The notes beneath the pieces are model-generated. The model saw nothing but the letters and a program-made list of their open reading frames with translations. It was not told the origin of the DNA and searched no databases. A stretch of DNA of 31,952 nucleotides from a virus: positions 1-31,952 of the IMG/VR virus record IMGVR_UViG_3300042447_000302, one strand, 5' to 3'. The first letter of the stretch is position 1. Every line of letters begins with the position of its first letter. Shown here piece by piece: positions 7,781-30,404 of this stretch. Made by a program: the position numbers and the translations under genes.

Positions 7781-8214
7781 TCAACTGCATTCTTGATGTG
7801 CTTATCCGCATTGTAGGTTTCGATTTCATATTGCTTGCCCATCGTTGCATTTACTGGTCGATAGAATATTGCCATTGCTTTGTCGAGTTCTTGCAATATG
7901 TTTTCTTCCTTCGTGTAGTGCATCAAGTCTGCAAATTCACCATACGATAACTGACTGATGTTTGGAATGAAGCCATATGATTTTCCATTCAAGTCAAACC
8001 TTAACTTGAACTCTCCAGACTCTTGGTTGTCGATGACTGACTGAATGTAGTCGAGAGTTTCTTTTACTTCTGTGAATGGCAGCAAGCGCACTTCTTCTTC
8101 AGATACGCCAGTCATAATGCAGAATCTTTCAAACTCGTTCTTGGTGTTATTCCAGTCAAGGAATTGACCAAGTGATATGTCGCTATAACTGCGAGGTATA
8201 TATCCTTTTTTCAT
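7627..8214 (-). CDS. Tail assembly chaperone (G-like)
   Basis: A 195-aa mostly helical protein. It starts SYSDISLGQFLDWNN and contains ISQLSYGEFADLMHY, then LDKAMAIFYRPVN. This pattern is that of proteins placed just ahead of a frameshifted extension in Bacteroidetes siphophages and corresponds to gpG-type tail assembly chaperones, which coat the tape measure during tail building. The C-terminus EATKELQKMTEELKQEKQ is a charged helix that the frameshift product would replace. The ATG overlaps the small-terminase stop by 4 bases. The chaperone is distant from the tape-measure gene (about 7.8 kb in transcription order), which is unusual. Confidence 0.65.
   Translation of the reverse strand: MKKGYIPRSYSDISLGQFLDWNNTKNEFERFCIMTGVSEEEVRLLPFTEVKETLDYIQSVIDNQESGEFKLRFDLNGKSYGFIPNISQLSYGEFADLMHYTKEENILQELDKAMAIFYRPVNATMGKQYEIETYNADKHIKNAVDMRHLRLDYVFGVTLFFSSIASNLLDNSLTYLVEATKELQKMTEELKQEKQ
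7731..7740 (-). promoter_or_regulatory. Probable -1 ribosomal frameshift site (C followed by nine T)
   Basis: On the minus strand the chaperone reads CTT TTT TTT TCG at this point, a C followed by nine T. Slipping back one base from T-TTT-TTT keeps perfect codon pairing and enters the open -1 frame that ends at 7463. The run is ~110 bases before the zero-frame stop. I did not identify a firm downstream stem-loop or an upstream stimulatory sequence. Confidence 0.6.
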
Positions 8215-8534
8215 ATTGAATCTGAAATAACAACTTTGATTGGTTCAACTTGAGTGACCTCTTGACGTTCTACATAACCACGCTTCTTTCCTTTGGTCTT
8301 TAGAAAGAAGATGGTTGATGATACCTCACCATCTTGAATCTGCTTATGCAGTTGAGATTCTGCAAAGTCAATAGCAATGTCCTCAATAGATTCAACTTCT
8401 GCCTTGTATTCTGGATCATCATTCAACCAGTTGTAATGTGTTTGTCTTGATATTCCTACTGCCTTGCAAGCAGAAGTGACTACTCCAAGAGAACGCTCAA
8501 GTGCTGCAAGCATCTTCTTTTTTTCATTGTCCAT
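8211..8534 (-). CDS. terS: Terminase small subunit
   Basis: A 107-aa protein with a helix-turn-helix near residues 15-40 (VVTSACKAVGISRQTHYNWL) followed by DDPEYKAEVES. A long helix DFAESQLHKQIQDGE and the end IFFLKTKGKKRGYVERQE come after it. This order is characteristic of small terminases that bind packaging sites on phage DNA. Its ATG overlaps the Gp88-like stop by 11 bases, and its stop overlaps the chaperone ATG by 4. The large subunit is not beside it; it is on the opposite strand at 19262-20566. Confidence 0.85.
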   Translation of the reverse strand: MDNEKKKMLAALERSLGVVTSACKAVGISRQTHYNWLNDDPEYKAEVESIEDIAIDFAESQLHKQIQDGEVSSTIFFLKTKGKKRGYVERQEVTQVEPIKVVISDSI

Positions 8535-9222
8535 TTTGTAAAATTATTTTCTTTTTATTTTGCCATTCTCTGAAGGTTTGACTTCCTTGTTTTTTGACAA
8601 AGTGAGCAATATTGTTTCTGTACAAACCTATCTTATGATTCGGATTGATTGCTGCTTGTTTATCATCATCAGCTATATCAACGTACCCTTCAGCTATCAT
8701 TTGCTCGTAGTTGGTAAACACATCCGAATGTCTATCATTCTCAACATCTATCAGATGGTCTTGCTTTCCACCGAAGGAATATATGACGATGAAGTTATTT
8801 GGAATGCTTTTTTTGAAAGACTTGAATAACGCAACTTCTTTCGTGTAGGTGTAGAAGGTTACTTCTGGATTATTGATTGCTATACTCATCCATAATTTAG
8901 CGTACCAGTGAGCAAAGAAGTCACCAGCATCGTGTATGCGTACAAACTTTCCTATGTACTTTTTCTTTGCAAGTTCTTCATTCATCATAGCTTTGAACAA
9001 GCCACTATGGTTCAAGACCAATTCTAACTTTTCCAGATGTGCTTTTTTTACATTGCTGAAGTTGTACGTTCCGCTTTTCGCATAACAGAAAGCACCACAC
9101 ACACCAGCATTTGGACAAGTGTTGAACTTTTTTCCATTGGTAAGCGTGACGTTATGTGCTGGAATAGTCCATCCGAAGATTCCAGTTTTTTTTAGATCAC
9201 TATTCTGGGTGAGTAGATTCAT
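8524..9222 (-). CDS. Gp88-family Cys-rich protein, last gene of the modification cassette
   Basis: A 232-aa protein. The start at 9222 gives an ATGA overlap with the dioxygenase; a longer frame from 9321 is possible but would overlap it by ~100 bases. It opens LLTQNSDLKKTGIFGWTIP, then CPNAGVCGAFCYAKSGTY (Cys spaced C-x5-C-x3-C), VRIHDAGDFFAHWY and VTFYTYTKEV. These features match, from memory, the Gp88 family first seen in mycobacteriophages. The Cys cluster could hold a metal or an iron-sulfur cluster, which is inference. It lies between the dioxygenase and the small terminase and overlaps both, so it may be part of DNA modification or link it to packaging. Its reaction is unknown. Confidence 0.65.
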   Translation of the reverse strand: MNLLTQNSDLKKTGIFGWTIPAHNVTLTNGKKFNTCPNAGVCGAFCYAKSGTYNFSNVKKAHLEKLELVLNHSGLFKAMMNEELAKKKYIGKFVRIHDAGDFFAHWYAKLWMSIAINNPEVTFYTYTKEVALFKSFKKSIPNNFIVIYSFGGKQDHLIDVENDRHSDVFTNYEQMIAEGYVDIADDDKQAAINPNHKIGLYRNNIAHFVKKQGSQTFREWQNKKKIILQNGQ

Positions 9223-10019
9223 AAGTTGACGAATGCTTTTAGTGGATAGAACACGAGTGAGTTTCTGTAACCACCTTCGTGTGTTGGAATAATTGGCGTA
9301 ACTCCGTGAACATTTCTCCACGCTGGATAAACGAGTATTGAATTGTCCTTCTGCCCGATGGTCGCGTTGTAGTCTGGAATATGCAAGTCACCACCTTTGG
9401 AGTTATTCTTTTTGCAAATAATTACATTGACTGCTCCGACAATATTTCCAGTGTCACGATGGAATGGTGCGCTAATATTGTAGTTTGAAATTGATGAAGT
9501 GAACAGATTAGCAAACTTCCACTGACTACCAACTTCTTCAAATAATTTAGATTGCTGCTCGTATTGTTCTGGTAGCACTTCTTTTATAAGTTGCTCACTT
9601 TCTTTGGCTAACATCAACATTGCTTTGATAAAAGTTTCTGCTGACTTAACAGAGTGAACACTGCTTCTTGACGGATATGGTCTTTGCATATGTGGCTTTG
9701 GTGGTATGGAGCCTATTATGCTTGACATTTGAACAGTCCCTTTTTTTTTTGCTTCAGCCCTTGTCATTCCTTCTTTATACACTTTAGAAAAAACATCACT
9801 TCTTTCTAATAAAGACTTCGGCACATTTTTACTTCTAAATTCAGCATTAGCCAAATCAGCAAGTTTGCACATCTTGTCTGGCATCTTTGTCAAATAGAAC
9901 CCAATAGCAACACCATCTGCATAAAATATGCAATCTTCAGTGATGTTAGGTTCTATATACTCACAAGCCTCACCTATCTTTCTGCTATGAGGAATAGGTG
10001 TTAAGTCAATTCTTTTCAT
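9219..10019 (-). CDS. JBP/TET-like 2-oxoglutarate/Fe(II) dioxygenase, putative DNA base hydroxylase
   Basis: A 266-aa protein. The start at 10019 (MKRIDLTPIPHSRK) gives an ATGA overlap with the glycosyltransferase; an ATG at 10037 is an alternative. The catalytic core is at residues ~180-260: APFHRDTGNIVGAVNVIICK (H187, D189, N192), GGDLHIPDYNATI, the distal H238 in NVHGVTP, and R252 in GGYRNSLVFYP, which would bind 2-oxoglutarate. HxD, then ~49 residues to His and 14 to Arg, is close to the spacing in JBP thymidine hydroxylases, and HRD-x-x-N followed by hydrophobic strands recalls TET/JBP. The N-terminal 180 residues are not assigned. With a glycosyltransferase and a ParB-like protein next door, the likely substrate is thymine or methylcytosine in phage DNA. 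Confidence 0.75.
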   Translation of the reverse strand: MKRIDLTPIPHSRKIGEACEYIEPNITEDCIFYADGVAIGFYLTKMPDKMCKLADLANAEFRSKNVPKSLLERSDVFSKVYKEGMTRAEAKKKGTVQMSSIIGSIPPKPHMQRPYPSRSSVHSVKSAETFIKAMLMLAKESEQLIKEVLPEQYEQQSKLFEEVGSQWKFANLFTSSISNYNISAPFHRDTGNIVGAVNVIICKKNNSKGGDLHIPDYNATIGQKDNSILVYPAWRNVHGVTPIIPTHEGGYRNSLVFYPLKAFVNL

Positions 10020-10921
10020 TGTATAATATTTAACCATTTATTATTCTCATCATCTGACGGCAACTGATTCCCTAATAGTATTGGTTTGTGTAACACTTGC
10101 ACCAATTCTGATTCATTAGAAACTGCATAACAATTTTGATTGCTGACGTAGACACTATCTGGGACATTGCACCAGTCCTTGTGTAATATTAATCCGCAGT
10201 TGTGATATTCTGCTTCCAAGAAAGTGTACTGCGTTCCACCACCATCATTTTTGATAGTTGATAAGTCAACCAAGAATTTCGTTTCAGCATAAAGTTTACT
10301 GATGTCTTGAATATTTTTGGAATAGTAACCTTTGTAAAAAGCATCAAAATTCAATTGCTTCAATTTGTGGAAATAATAAATATGGTTCTTGTAACCATAA
10401 ATTTCAACATCCGCGCCAATATTGTTTGCTTTACAAATGATGTCTGTGTTTTTATCAAAGTCTACTCTGGACAATGCTCTGTTGTATTTTTTTGGCAGAA
10501 CATACTTTTTGTATCTGAAAAAAGGGTGTTTGAGAAAAGTATTTTCAATACCCATCTTGTTCAATAGAGTATGAACTGTTTTTCTAATTGTTACTACTTT
10601 ATTTTTTTGAGCAAATTCAACTACTTCATTTGACAATTCGGTCGGGTCGTGTATGACAATCGTAGAATTTTTAAAGTATTTCAAGTATTGGTAGTGTGCT
10701 TTGTCAACTGCTAAAATAATAGCATTGTCAAAATTATGTATAGCACCAGCAGTAATATTTTTGTATGTGATGTCACCATAAAACACACCACCACCTTTGA
10801 AAGATTCTTTTATTTTTATGACGTGGTTTTCATTGAGTATATGGCACAAATGAAAAGAAAAAGAAACCCAACCACCGTATTGTGAGTTGGATAAATAGAA
10901 CAATTTGTTACGAAGATTCAT
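10016..10921 (-). CDS. Glycosyltransferase (GT-B, GT4-like), putative DNA glucosyl/glycosyl transferase
   Basis: A 301-aa protein. The N-terminal half begins with a short strand-loop (LFYLSNSQYGGWVSFSFHLC) like the acceptor domain of GT-B enzymes. The C-terminal half has LVDLSTIKNDGGGTQYTFLE followed by AEYHNCGLILHKDW, the equivalent of the donor-binding G-x-G...E-A motif of GT4-type transferases, then a VSNQNCYAVSNESELVQVL helix. There is no membrane anchor or signal peptide, so it acts in the cytoplasm. It overlaps the ParB-like gene and the dioxygenase gene by 4 bases each. The simplest reading is transfer of a sugar to the hydroxymethyl base made by the dioxygenase. Modification of a virion protein or cell surface is the alternative. 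Confidence 0.75.
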   Translation of the reverse strand: MNLRNKLFYLSNSQYGGWVSFSFHLCHILNENHVIKIKESFKGGGVFYGDITYKNITAGAIHNFDNAIILAVDKAHYQYLKYFKNSTIVIHDPTELSNEVVEFAQKNKVVTIRKTVHTLLNKMGIENTFLKHPFFRYKKYVLPKKYNRALSRVDFDKNTDIICKANNIGADVEIYGYKNHIYYFHKLKQLNFDAFYKGYYSKNIQDISKLYAETKFLVDLSTIKNDGGGTQYTFLEAEYHNCGLILHKDWCNVPDSVYVSNQNCYAVSNESELVQVLHKPILLGNQLPSDDENNKWLNIIQ

Positions 10922-11529
10922 AGTTTATTCTTTTCTTCTTTCAACTTTTCAATCAACAAGCCACCGATATACAAACCTTGTTCACGCCAAAACTTTACCA
11001 ATTCTTGCGCTTGCTCATAGTGTTCTGCTTCAAATTCAATTTGAATTGCTTTCTTGACGCCACCAGACATTTCATCAATTTCACTTTGAAGTTCACTATC
11101 TTCAAGAATTGAATAGTCAACATCTGCTGGTGCTTTCCATACATCTAAACCCCATTCCGTGAGAAGTTCAGAGTCCCATTCGTTGGCAAGAATATCCCAA
11201 TCCCATTCACCGAAACCGACATTATCTTTGATGATGAACTCTTGCTTCTGCTGGTCAGTTAAATGTTCGGCTACAATAATCGGAACGATTTGCAGACCGC
11301 ATTCCATCGCTGCCTTATGGCGCATATTGCCACCCAGAATAACCATATCGGAATCTACAATGATAGGTCTAAGTTCAAGCATTTCTGGAAATTCAGATAT
11401 CGACTTGACTAACTTCTGGAATTTATCATCTTTGATGATTCGTGGATTACTTTCGTTTGACTTGATTGAGTCAATAGGAACTCTCTGCACGTTGTAATTT
11501 GCAAAGCTATTGGTTTGTTTTTTAGCCAT
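10918..11529 (-). CDS. ParB-like nuclease-domain protein
   Basis: A 203-aa protein. Residues ~14-110 are a ParB N-terminal-like domain: VQRVPIDSIKSNESNPRII, then LRPIIVDSDMVILGGNMRHK (the GGNxRxxA box), AMECG, and the GEWDWDILANEWDSELLTEW module. That module often follows ParB domains in phage DNA-modification proteins and in ParB-methyltransferase fusions. No methyltransferase domain follows; the C-terminus is a helical tail. There is no ParA gene and no obvious partition role. It heads the GT and dioxygenase genes with a 4-base overlap, so it probably guides or couples modification to DNA, a pairing reported for phage TET/JBP systems (Iyer and Aravind, from memory). Confidence 0.8.
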   Translation of the reverse strand: MAKKQTNSFANYNVQRVPIDSIKSNESNPRIIKDDKFQKLVKSISEFPEMLELRPIIVDSDMVILGGNMRHKAAMECGLQIVPIIVAEHLTDQQKQEFIIKDNVGFGEWDWDILANEWDSELLTEWGLDVWKAPADVDYSILEDSELQSEIDEMSGGVKKAIQIEFEAEHYEQAQELVKFWREQGLYIGGLLIEKLKEEKNKL

Positions 11530-11812
11530 TGTTTATATTAAGGTTTAGTTTGATTGAATCGCCATCTACAACAATCTCCTTGGTGATTGAAAAAAGAAAA
11601 TGCAATACACCAGTACCATATTCTTTGTAATGATAGGTGATTGTGTTATCTCTGGAAGTCTTAATGAGATTGTTTCTTACGAAACGAGATAATGCTTTTT
11701 CGCTCTTGAAAGAAAAGTTCTTTGCTTTCAGAGTCTTGACCAGTACATCCATTTCCGTGTTTGCCACGAGTTGGATTACTTCGTCTATTTTTTCTTGTGG
11801 TAATTCATTCAT
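11522..11812 (-). CDS. Hypothetical protein, first gene of the modification cassette
   Basis: A 96-aa protein that I do not recognise. Residues 1-55 are helical (EKIDEVIQLVANTEMDVLVK, then SFKSEKALSRFVRNNL) and the rest is beta-like (NTITYHYKEYGTGVLHFLF). Its end overlaps the ParB-like ATG by 8 bases, so it is translated with the cassette. It is the first gene after the 470-base intergenic region holding terminators and a possible promoter. Its small helical start could bind DNA, but no clear helix-turn-helix is seen. Confidence 0.7.
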   Translation of the reverse strand: MNELPQEKIDEVIQLVANTEMDVLVKTLKAKNFSFKSEKALSRFVRNNLIKTSRDNTITYHYKEYGTGVLHFLFSITKEIVVDGDSIKLNLNINNG

Positions 11813-18908: not shown

Positions 18909-19262
18909 ATGATAACAAACTTTGAGAACGTCACCTATAAATTGACTGACGAAGAAATGAAACACTTGCCTACTATAATAGCAATGCTGAAGCAAAGATA
19001 CGGAAGGGATAAAGCATTATCTTGCACCCACATTCAAGAGCAAGTGAACATCAGTCAAGCACGAATCAGAATCATTATTAATTACATTCGAAGAAATGGA
19101 TTAGTACCTGACTTGTGTGCCAGCAGCAAGGGATATTATGTCGCAAGAACGCAGCAAGAGTTCCACAAGTATGTTCAGTCATTGACAGATAGAATTAACT
19201 CTATACAATCGGTTCTGGATGCAATCAATCACAATCATTCACCACAATACGAATTGATATAA
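18909..19262 (+). CDS. Winged-helix-like DNA-binding protein directly before large terminase
   Basis: A 117-aa protein. Residues ~37-75 (KALSCTHIQEQVNISQARIR, then IIINYIRRNGLVPDLCASSK) form a helix-turn-helix followed by a beta wing (GYYVARTQQEF). A C-terminal helix (LTDRINSIQSVLDAI) could serve oligomerisation. Its TAA overlaps the large-terminase ATG (TAATG), so the two are translated together. It might regulate terminase, help it bind DNA, or stand in for a second small-terminase-like factor. A typical small terminase exists at 8211-8534. Confidence 0.65.
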   Translation: MITNFENVTYKLTDEEMKHLPTIIAMLKQRYGRDKALSCTHIQEQVNISQARIRIIINYIRRNGLVPDLCASSKGYYVARTQQEFHKYVQSLTDRINSIQSVLDAINHNHSPQYELI

Positions 19263-20566
19263 TGTATCAGTTTGAGTACACCCAAAGGCAGCAAGAAGCA
19301 TTGAGTTATTTGTCAATCAACAATACTGATTGCGAACTGCTGCTCTTTGGTGGTGCTGCTGGTGGTGGCAAGTCTTATCTTGGTTGTGCGTGGCAGATAT
19401 CAAGACGATTGAAATACGCAAACACCAGAGGATTGATAGGTAGATGCGAATTGAAGAAGTTGAAACAGACAACGATGAAAACCTTTTGGAAGATATGCGT
19501 TGACATTGGTCTGGTCAAAGACATTCACTACACCTATAACCAGCAAGAACAGACAATCAAGTTCTTCAATGGAAGTGAAATTGTGTTGATGGATTTGAGA
19601 GATATGCCAAGTGACGTTGAGTTTACAAGACTTGGTTCGCTTGAAATTACAGACTACTTTGTTGACGAAGTTGCTGAAGTGAGTAAACGTGCTATTGAGA
19701 TTCTGGATTCTCGTGTACGATACAACTTGATAGATGATAAGCCAAAAGGATTAATGACTTGCAATCCGACCAAAGGATGGTTATATAACGAGTTCTTTGA
19801 TGCACATCGTTCTGGAAACTTAAGATTTGATAGAGCATTCATTCGTTCCCTACCAGATGACAATCCACACTTACCACAATCGTATCTCGACAAGCTATCA
19901 AGGCTATCAGAACGTGACAGAAAAAGATTGAAAGATGGTGACTGGGATTATGATGATAGCAATGACAGATTGTATCATTATGACGATTTGCTTCGCTGCT
20001 TTAGGGACGAGATTGTAGGCAATAAGACGAAATATATCACTGCTGACATTGCTGCTCTTGGAAATGACAAGACGATAATTGGATTGTGGGATGGTATGAC
20101 ATTGCTTGAGATTCATAAACTGGAACACAAGTACCCAAATGAAGTTGCTGACTACATTCGCCAACTATCCATTCAGCACAATGTTCGATTGTCAAATATA
20201 GTTGTCGATGCTGATGGCTTGGGAATTGGTGTGGTTGGAATACTTAAATGTCAAGCATTCAATAATGGTGGTCGTTCTACTGAACCAGAGATATATTTGA
20301 ATCTGAAAAGTGAATGCTACTTCAAGATATCAGATGACATTGCTAACAATTCAATCACGTTTATCTGCAAGTCATACAAGAGTGATATCATTAAGGAATT
20401 GGAAGTTGTAAGGAATTACACTGCCAACACAGAAAAAAGAAGGCAAGTGACACCGAAGGATGAAATAAAAAGAATGAACGGGTTTTCTCCAGACATTGCT
20501 GATATGATTATGATGAGAAAATACTTTGATTTATATCCAAATTACAGAAGATATGGTGTGAGATAA
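19262..20566 (+). CDS. terL: Terminase large subunit
   Basis: A 434-aa protein, of usual length. The ATPase half has Walker A GGAAGGGKS (residues 30-38), LIGRCELKKLKQT, the Walker B-like YFVDEVAEV (D135, E136), and the C-motif-like TCNPTKGW (~166-173). The RNase H-like nuclease half has ITADIAALGNDKT (D262), NIVVDADGLGIGV (D316) and the last acidic site in GFSPDIADMIMMR. It packages DNA by ATP hydrolysis and cuts it at headful or cos sites. It sits in the rightward early operon, on the opposite strand from all other packaging and head genes, which is unusual. Confidence 0.95.
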   Translation: MYQFEYTQRQQEALSYLSINNTDCELLLFGGAAGGGKSYLGCAWQISRRLKYANTRGLIGRCELKKLKQTTMKTFWKICVDIGLVKDIHYTYNQQEQTIKFFNGSEIVLMDLRDMPSDVEFTRLGSLEITDYFVDEVAEVSKRAIEILDSRVRYNLIDDKPKGLMTCNPTKGWLYNEFFDAHRSGNLRFDRAFIRSLPDDNPHLPQSYLDKLSRLSERDRKRLKDGDWDYDDSNDRLYHYDDLLRCFRDEIVGNKTKYITADIAALGNDKTIIGLWDGMTLLEIHKLEHKYPNEVADYIRQLSIQHNVRLSNIVVDADGLGIGVVGILKCQAFNNGGRSTEPEIYLNLKSECYFKISDDIANNSITFICKSYKSDIIKELEVVRNYTANTEKRRQVTPKDEIKRMNGFSPDIADMIMMRKYFDLYPNYRRYGVR

Positions 20567-29831: not shown

Positions 29832-30404
29832 CTAACCAGCCATCAATATTGATGACAATTCTTCATAGAACTCTTGCTCTTTTTTGCTTAATGCTACTTT
29901 CTCGTTGAAGAAACCTTCAAGTGAGAAACCTTTAAATGTTCCCTTCTTGACTTCTTGCCACACTTCATCATTCATCACTTTGCTACCAATGAACCAAGTG
30001 CCGTTGGGATAATCTTCGAAGCCCAAAGATACTGACTTGTCCATACTTGAATGCTTCAACCAACTTTCAACTACAACCAATCCATTCACCGCGAACTTGT
30101 GTTCTATTGTGTGGTTGTGGTGAGCATTTCTAATGAAGAACTCTTGAGATATCTTCTCTGTTGTTTCAGTTGTGAACTTACCATAGTATGGTGTGCCATC
30201 TGCATCTTCACGATAAATCAACTGATCTGGAATAATTACTGCTCCATAAACAATTCTTTTTTCTTCATCGTATGCTTTGAATTGTAGCTTCTTTGATAGT
30301 GCAATAAAATCAACTTCTATTGCTGGAAATTCTACGAGTGAAATTGCGTTGACACCAAGCATTCCACTTTCGTCTATTGTGTATTCTCTGACTTCTTTTT
30401 TCAT
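29832..30404 (-). CDS. Prohead protease, XkdF-like serine peptidase
   Basis: A 190-aa protein. It starts IDESGMLGVNAISLVEFPAI, then IVYGAVIIPDQLIYRED, followed by the likely catalytic His in FIRNAHHNHTIEH (H96 or H101), VVVESWLKHSS and the Ser in FKGFSLEGFF (S161). These segments match the XkdF N-terminal peptidase family (Peptidase_S78_2), which matures the head proteins. The stop of the tape-measure gene lies one base before it. Usual length for the family. Confidence 0.85.
   Translation of the reverse strand: MKKEVREYTIDESGMLGVNAISLVEFPAIEVDFIALSKKLQFKAYDEEKRIVYGAVIIPDQLIYREDADGTPYYGKFTTETTEKISQEFFIRNAHHNHTIEHKFAVNGLVVVESWLKHSSMDKSVSLGFEDYPNGTWFIGSKVMNDEVWQEVKKGTFKGFSLEGFFNEKVALSKKEQEFYEELSSILMAG

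Follow-up and report, generated by a model that had tools for sequence, protein, structure and literature searches.

Thymine hydroxylation in finished DNA is known chemically from the JBP enzymes of kinetoplastids. Phage TET/JBP genes that are accompanied by ParB and glycosyltransferase genes are already known, and so are the TAGT, ADDT and P-loop kinase families. ADDT chemistry starts from 5-hydroxymethyluracil (5hmU), and the usual phage source of 5hmU is a thymidylate-synthase-type enzyme. Phages using TET with a C5-methyltransferase make 5hmC-based bases (PMC12730594), as was reportedly also described by Burke in 2021. A locus that is comparable to these systems lies in the 31,952-bp IMG/VR virus record IMGVR_UViG_3300042447_000302, the whole of which was analysed and is termed the window here. 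Comparison with related loci makes it probable that this locus encodes a post-replicative base hypermodification cassette, in which a TET/JBP dioxygenase would hydroxylate a base, with thymine as the likelier one, a GT-B fold glycosyltransferase (GT) would transfer a sugar, a ParB-like protein would assist, and the GT gene would occupy a swappable slot.

The gene run of the window

With its 127-bp direct terminal repeat, the record is probably complete, as a circular assembly, so that the absence of a C5-cytosine methyltransferase gene is meaningful. The original prediction of a genome without a DNA methyltransferase agrees with the lack of any PF00145 (C5-cytosine methyltransferase) match in the 31,952 bp. 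The match of the region 29832-30404 to phrog_1530, which is labelled 'DNA methyltransferase', covers the C-terminal part of that family, and the other matches of this region are head maturation proteases, so that the label is misleading and the region is not read as a methyltransferase. Five genes located at 8524-11812 on the minus strand overlap by 8, 4, 4 and 4 bases in the order of a 96-aa ORF, the ParB-like gene, the GT gene, the dioxygenase gene and a GP88-family gene, in accordance with the predicted coordinates and overlaps. The last of them overlaps the gene of a terminase small subunit-like protein (TerS) by 11 bases.

The dioxygenase gene (9219-10019, minus strand) encodes a protein of 266 aa. 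An ATG at 10037 is also possible as its start, but the relatives begin at MKRIDL, which corresponds to 10019. This protein matches Pfam Tet_JBP with 43.6 bits (E 2.4e-11), above the Pfam curated cut-off of 34.9. The AF2 model built from 35 relatives has a pLDDT of 92.2, and the 26 PDB entries ranking highest in the fold comparison all belong to DNA-base dioxygenases, namely TET2, CcTET, NgTET1 and CMD1 (best E 6e-12). A profile search gives a weak alignment with TET2 (E 0.025), in which the two HRDxxN motifs coincide and the distal His and Arg are in register. The HRD-x-x-N motif, distal His and Arg had been numbered correctly as H187, D189, H238 and R252 in the 266-aa form, and are H193, D195, H244 and R258 in the longer ORF; these four residues, which form the HxD...H metal triad and the distal 2OG-binding Arg, are invariant in all 177 aligned relatives. 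Judging from its modelled fold and its active site, the 266-aa protein is a TET/JBP-type 2OG-Fe(II) DNA base dioxygenase, as predicted, and would be catalytically active as such. The label 'queuine tRNA-ribosyltransferase' given to it by PHROG (phrog_6059), and its GenBank copies (NC_020847 17129-17914), are misannotations, because the dioxygenase has a TET fold.

The GT gene (10016-10921, minus strand) encodes a 301-aa protein of an unnamed family. Single-sequence and profile searches give no significant match to this protein in Pfam, PHROG, NCBIfam or PDB sequences, nor does it match the TAGT family PF20691, which slot proteins of its relatives do match. Because the PDB sequence and profile searches are not significant, the fold had to come from a model. 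The AF2 model (pLDDT 85.6) gives 104 Foldseek matches at E<=0.001, and the matches listed at the top are mostly GT-B enzymes. They are mostly of the GT4 type, with a best E of 3.6e-8. The model therefore bears out the predicted GT-B transferase with its twin Rossmann fold. A structural match to DNA glycosyltransferases, which had been proposed as a check, is also found, since T4 beta-glucosyltransferase (1bgt) is among the matches at E 2.9e-5, but GT4-type enzymes match better.

A scan of IMG/VR detects 19 records with relatives of the GT, at 65-76% identity. The GT gene is located between the ParB-like and TET/JBP genes in all of the 20 distinct records, that is, these 19 and the window. In two of these records (L097/L098), the GT is at 65% identity to that of the window, whereas the adjoining TET is at only 25%, with the TET of L098 still matching Tet_JBP (2.5e-11). 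The invariable position of the GT between ParB and TET, even beside a TET of 25% identity, is strong evidence that the GT is functionally coupled to these two proteins.

The ParB-like gene (10918-11529, minus strand) matches Pfam ParB_N with an E value of 9.7e-9. The prediction of a ParB-like protein just before the GT and dioxygenase is supported both by this match and by the relatives, in which it is a conserved upstream partner. A ParB-like gene precedes the slot or TET in 161 of the 180 TET loci. The other 19 loci, in which ParB is not called, are cut off by contig ends, except that of phage Tonitrus, gene 1 of which is annotated as ParB-like. Across these loci, the order ParB-[slot]-TET is a conserved unit, and its ParB-like protein is presumed to be a DNA-binding or targeting factor. 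Two labels of the ParB-like gene are misleading. The match to phrog_498, 'DNA methyltransferase', is read as a ParB-like N-terminal region and not as a methyltransferase, and the gene labelled 'DNA methylase' in phage MED4-184 (CPAG_00033) is the ParB-like gene.

The GP88-family gene (8524-9222, minus strand; Pfam GP88 3.3e-47) overlaps the dioxygenase gene by four bases in the window phage and had been regarded as a part of the set. The relatives do not support this assignment: GP88 is present in only two of 31 TET genomes, and no TET lies within about 6 kb of any of 22 GP88 relatives. From this distribution, GP88 is a passenger rather than a core member of the cassette. One close relative (L183:1356-4017) contains a GP88 gene (82%), a ParB gene, a gene for a 376-aa ABC-ATPase/GNAT fusion and a TerS gene (80% to that of the window) in this order, and the fusion is weakly Mom-like (E 0.02). 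By its gene order, it is the same locus as that of the window, with another putative modification gene replacing GT-TET.

The 96-aa ORF (11522-11812, minus strand), which is the first in the run, has no family match in Pfam or PHROG and no tblastn match in the other fetched loci, so that its membership in the cassette is unsupported. The TerS gene (8211-8534, minus strand; PHROG 309/4044, 2e-8/4e-8) is a flank and not a part of the cassette. The predicted coupling of the cassette to the small terminase is correct in that TerS adjoins it, but the large subunit gene (TerL, 19262-20566) lies on the opposite strand, at a distance of about 11 kb. This link is not special to the window phage, as many relatives likewise have TerS or terminase after TET. 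In the separation of TerS from TerL the window differs from many relatives, in which a gene of about 386 aa comes directly after TerS.

Exchange of the gene between ParB and TET

The slot between ParB and TET is occupied by a TAGT-like cluster in 70, an FkbM methyltransferase in 54, the window-type GT in 22 (20 distinct records) and an ADDT-type multigene set in nine (one of them also with FkbM) of the 180 TET loci, these counts reflecting the choice of queries. ParB directly abuts TET, with no slot gene, in four relatives (L120, L134, L171 and L179), the DNA of which possibly contains unadorned 5hmU. A scan of bacterial genomes detects only three loci, in metagenome bins.

The FkbM-family methyltransferase, which is the second commonest slot enzyme (L024, L076, L081 and about 50 more loci), may O-methylate 5-hydroxymethyl bases. 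To our knowledge, an O-methylated 5-hydroxymethyl base is not known from DNA. The slot of another locus (L010:947-2247) contains a TAGT glycosyltransferase and a Sulfotransfer_2 protein (4e-16), for which a sulfated sugar on DNA is a possible product.

A tree of 95 TET sequences requires a minimum of 29 changes of slot type, a count that is indicative only, as the tree was built by a quick method. For the window-type GT, at least seven slot changes are forced by well-supported branches of the TET tree. The TETs of L047 and L064 are 96.6% identical, yet their slot genes, TAGT and FkbM respectively, are unrelated. The DNA of these two loci is 86% identical through the very end of the ParB stop codon and 89% identical from the first base of TET. 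The sequences differ only in the slot, and the exchange is exact at the gene ends. Another pair, L014 and L015, with TAGT and a four-gene ADDT set respectively, breaks at nearly the same places. Alignment of these loci shows that the middle gene is replaced, precisely at its boundaries, by genes of other tailoring enzymes, with ParB and TET retained. DNA chemistry thus seems to be a swappable part in related phages, and its exchange presumably alters the surface chemistry of phage DNA in an arms race with the hosts.

Target base and alternative readings

According to the mechanism that we propose, the ParB-like protein would help to bring the enzymes to phage DNA, and the TET/JBP dioxygenase would hydroxylate the 5-methyl group of a pyrimidine in duplex DNA, more likely converting thymine to 5hmU. 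The GT-B enzyme would then glycosylate the hydroxymethyl group, with a nucleotide sugar as donor, to produce a base-J-like glycosyl-5hmU, and the modified DNA would be packaged and would evade host nucleases or glycosylases. Because the slot enzymes are alternative to one another, none of them can be the universal source of the TET substrate, and their action most likely comes after that of TET, on the hydroxymethyl group. Sequence alone reveals neither which sugar is added nor which base carries it.

The thymine target is supported by the genes that replace the GT and by the genes that the relatives lack. The TETs of L015 and L025 are 76-77% identical to that of the window, and their slot sets contain ADDT (PF18724), a P-loop protein, GNAT and a GATase-like protein. 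In L178, the slot encodes a P-loop protein and an FAD-type oxidoreductase together with ADDT. None of the P-loop proteins from the slots of the near relatives matches the kinase family significantly. The cultured phages CloverMinnie and Tonitrus contain ParB, TET, ADDT and P-loop kinase (PF18751) genes in that order, LilMcDreamy contains ParB-TET-ADDT, and Terij contains ParB-TET-P-loop kinase, with terminase genes coming after the cassette. Thymidine hypermodification has been ascribed to the Tonitrus system (PMC11955845), and 5hmdU kinase followed by transferases constitutes a 5hmdU pathway (PMC6449724). Of 56 TET records, seven encode a C5-methyltransferase (PF00145), and ten records of the GT type contain none; thymidylate-synthase-type enzymes (PF00303) are likewise absent from 30 TET records. 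The slot alternatives from thymidine hypermodification, together with the absence of a C5-methyltransferase or thymidylate-synthase-type source, argue indirectly for thymine, and the comparison makes 5hmU distinctly likelier than an oxidized 5-methylcytosine as the TET product. The predicted thymine oxidation followed by glycosylation is supported to this extent, but base J itself, with glucose on 5hmU, is not. A base-J-like nucleotide in phage DNA is nevertheless plausible from these gene combinations.

The same cassette may act on cytosine instead, in such a way that host or unrecognised phage C5 methylation produces 5mC, TET converts it to 5hmC and the GT glycosylates the latter. We regard this as unlikely, although it is the best of the alternatives. 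It has a basis in an established pathway, in which phage TET and C5-methyltransferase make 5hmC-based bases (PMC12730594), and the slot TAGTs are homologous to T-even enzymes that act on glucosyl-hmC (PMC13390438, PMC13216743). A host methylase could supply 5mC, and the seven relatives with PF00145 also fit this pathway. However, 49 of the 56 records and all GT-type records tested are devoid of this gene, and the ADDT and kinase alternatives of the slot belong to 5hmU chemistry. The Asn and Tyr matching TET2 Asn1387 and Tyr1902 at the base-contact sites are kept in all 177 relatives, which would fit cytosine, and an Asn or Asp in TET2, NgTET1 and CMD1 contacts N4 of 5mC (PMC11040006). Asn can pair with either C or T, so that the active-site residues fit both bases. 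In 176 of the 177 relatives, Leu takes the place of TET2 His1904, which speaks against cytosine if His1904 has the role that we presume for it.

It is improbable that the GT modifies a target other than DNA, such as a host surface glycan or protein, and merely shares the operon. Its best Foldseek matches are indeed GT4 enzymes whose acceptors are small molecules or glycans, but its position is exactly between ParB and TET in all 20 records, also beside a TET of 25% identity, and this position is filled by DNA-tailoring families in the relatives. It is highly improbable that the dioxygenase works alone in counter-defence, removing or oxidizing a methyl mark such as 6mA or 5mC in the DNA of the host or the phage, because the four slot-less relatives and the action of CcTET on 6mA (PMC11040006) are opposed by the large majority of loci with a tailoring enzyme in the slot and by Asn, not Gly, at the 6mA-determining site.

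Comparison with described systems

For hydroxylation of thymine followed by tailoring, a wider reading has a slightly better than even chance of being correct. In a large group of small lytic phages, ParB and a thymine-specific TET would form a fixed installer of 5hmU in finished DNA, and a single tailoring gene would be swapped exactly at gene boundaries. The tailoring genes would be those of glycosyltransferases of two folds, an FkbM O-methyltransferase, a sulfotransferase and amino-acid transferase sets. If so, the hypermodified thymine would differ from lineage to lineage, one version being a bacteriophage nucleotide of the base-J type that an unnamed GT-B family produces, and thymine hydroxylation in finished DNA would be a widespread phage strategy, serving as a fixed platform for quickly interchangeable decorations. 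The unstudied tailoring enzymes (the GT-B family, FkbM and the sulfotransferase pair) could place new chemistry on DNA. Whether T or 5mC is the substrate is testable in cultured relatives, such as Prochlorococcus phages MED4-184 and P-HS2, which have FkbM in the slot, Mycobacterium phage LilMcDreamy and Gordonia phage CloverMinnie. A literature search, limited for subscription journals, finds no description of the GT-B family of the window, its obligate position, or the frequency and precision of the slot exchange.

The cassette resembles the base J system of kinetoplastids (JBP1/JBP2 and base J glucosyltransferase) in that a TET/JBP dioxygenase is combined with a second enzyme, a glycosyltransferase for the hydroxymethyl group, and probably also in its thymine substrate. 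It differs from that system in its operon with a ParB-like partner, its new GT-B family and its exchangeable tailoring gene. Unlike JBP1, the 266-272 aa phage protein has no detected J-binding domain; its length is taken up by the Tet_JBP region and by an N-terminal segment that matches no other Pfam family. The cassette shares the phage TET family and decoration by glycosyltransferases, including TAGT (PF20691), with the 5hmC pathway of phage TET, C5-methyltransferase and GT, but C5-methyltransferase is absent from the window phage and most relatives, and the slot GT of the window is unrelated to TAGT by sequence and by fold class (GT-B versus GT-A).

In relatives of the cassette, ADDT and P-loop genes occur within the slot or beside TET, as in thymidine hypermodification of the M6/ViI type by 5hmdU kinase and amino acid:DNA transferase. 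Unlike in that system, 5hmU would come from the action of TET on DNA, not from a thymidylate-synthase-like dUMP hydroxymethylase, and the window phage has a GT instead. The alpha- and beta-glucosyltransferases of T4, which glucosylate phage DNA, share the GT-B fold with the GT of the window. This GT is only about 12-13% identical to them (Foldseek) and is closer to GT4-type enzymes, and its predicted acceptor is 5hmU.
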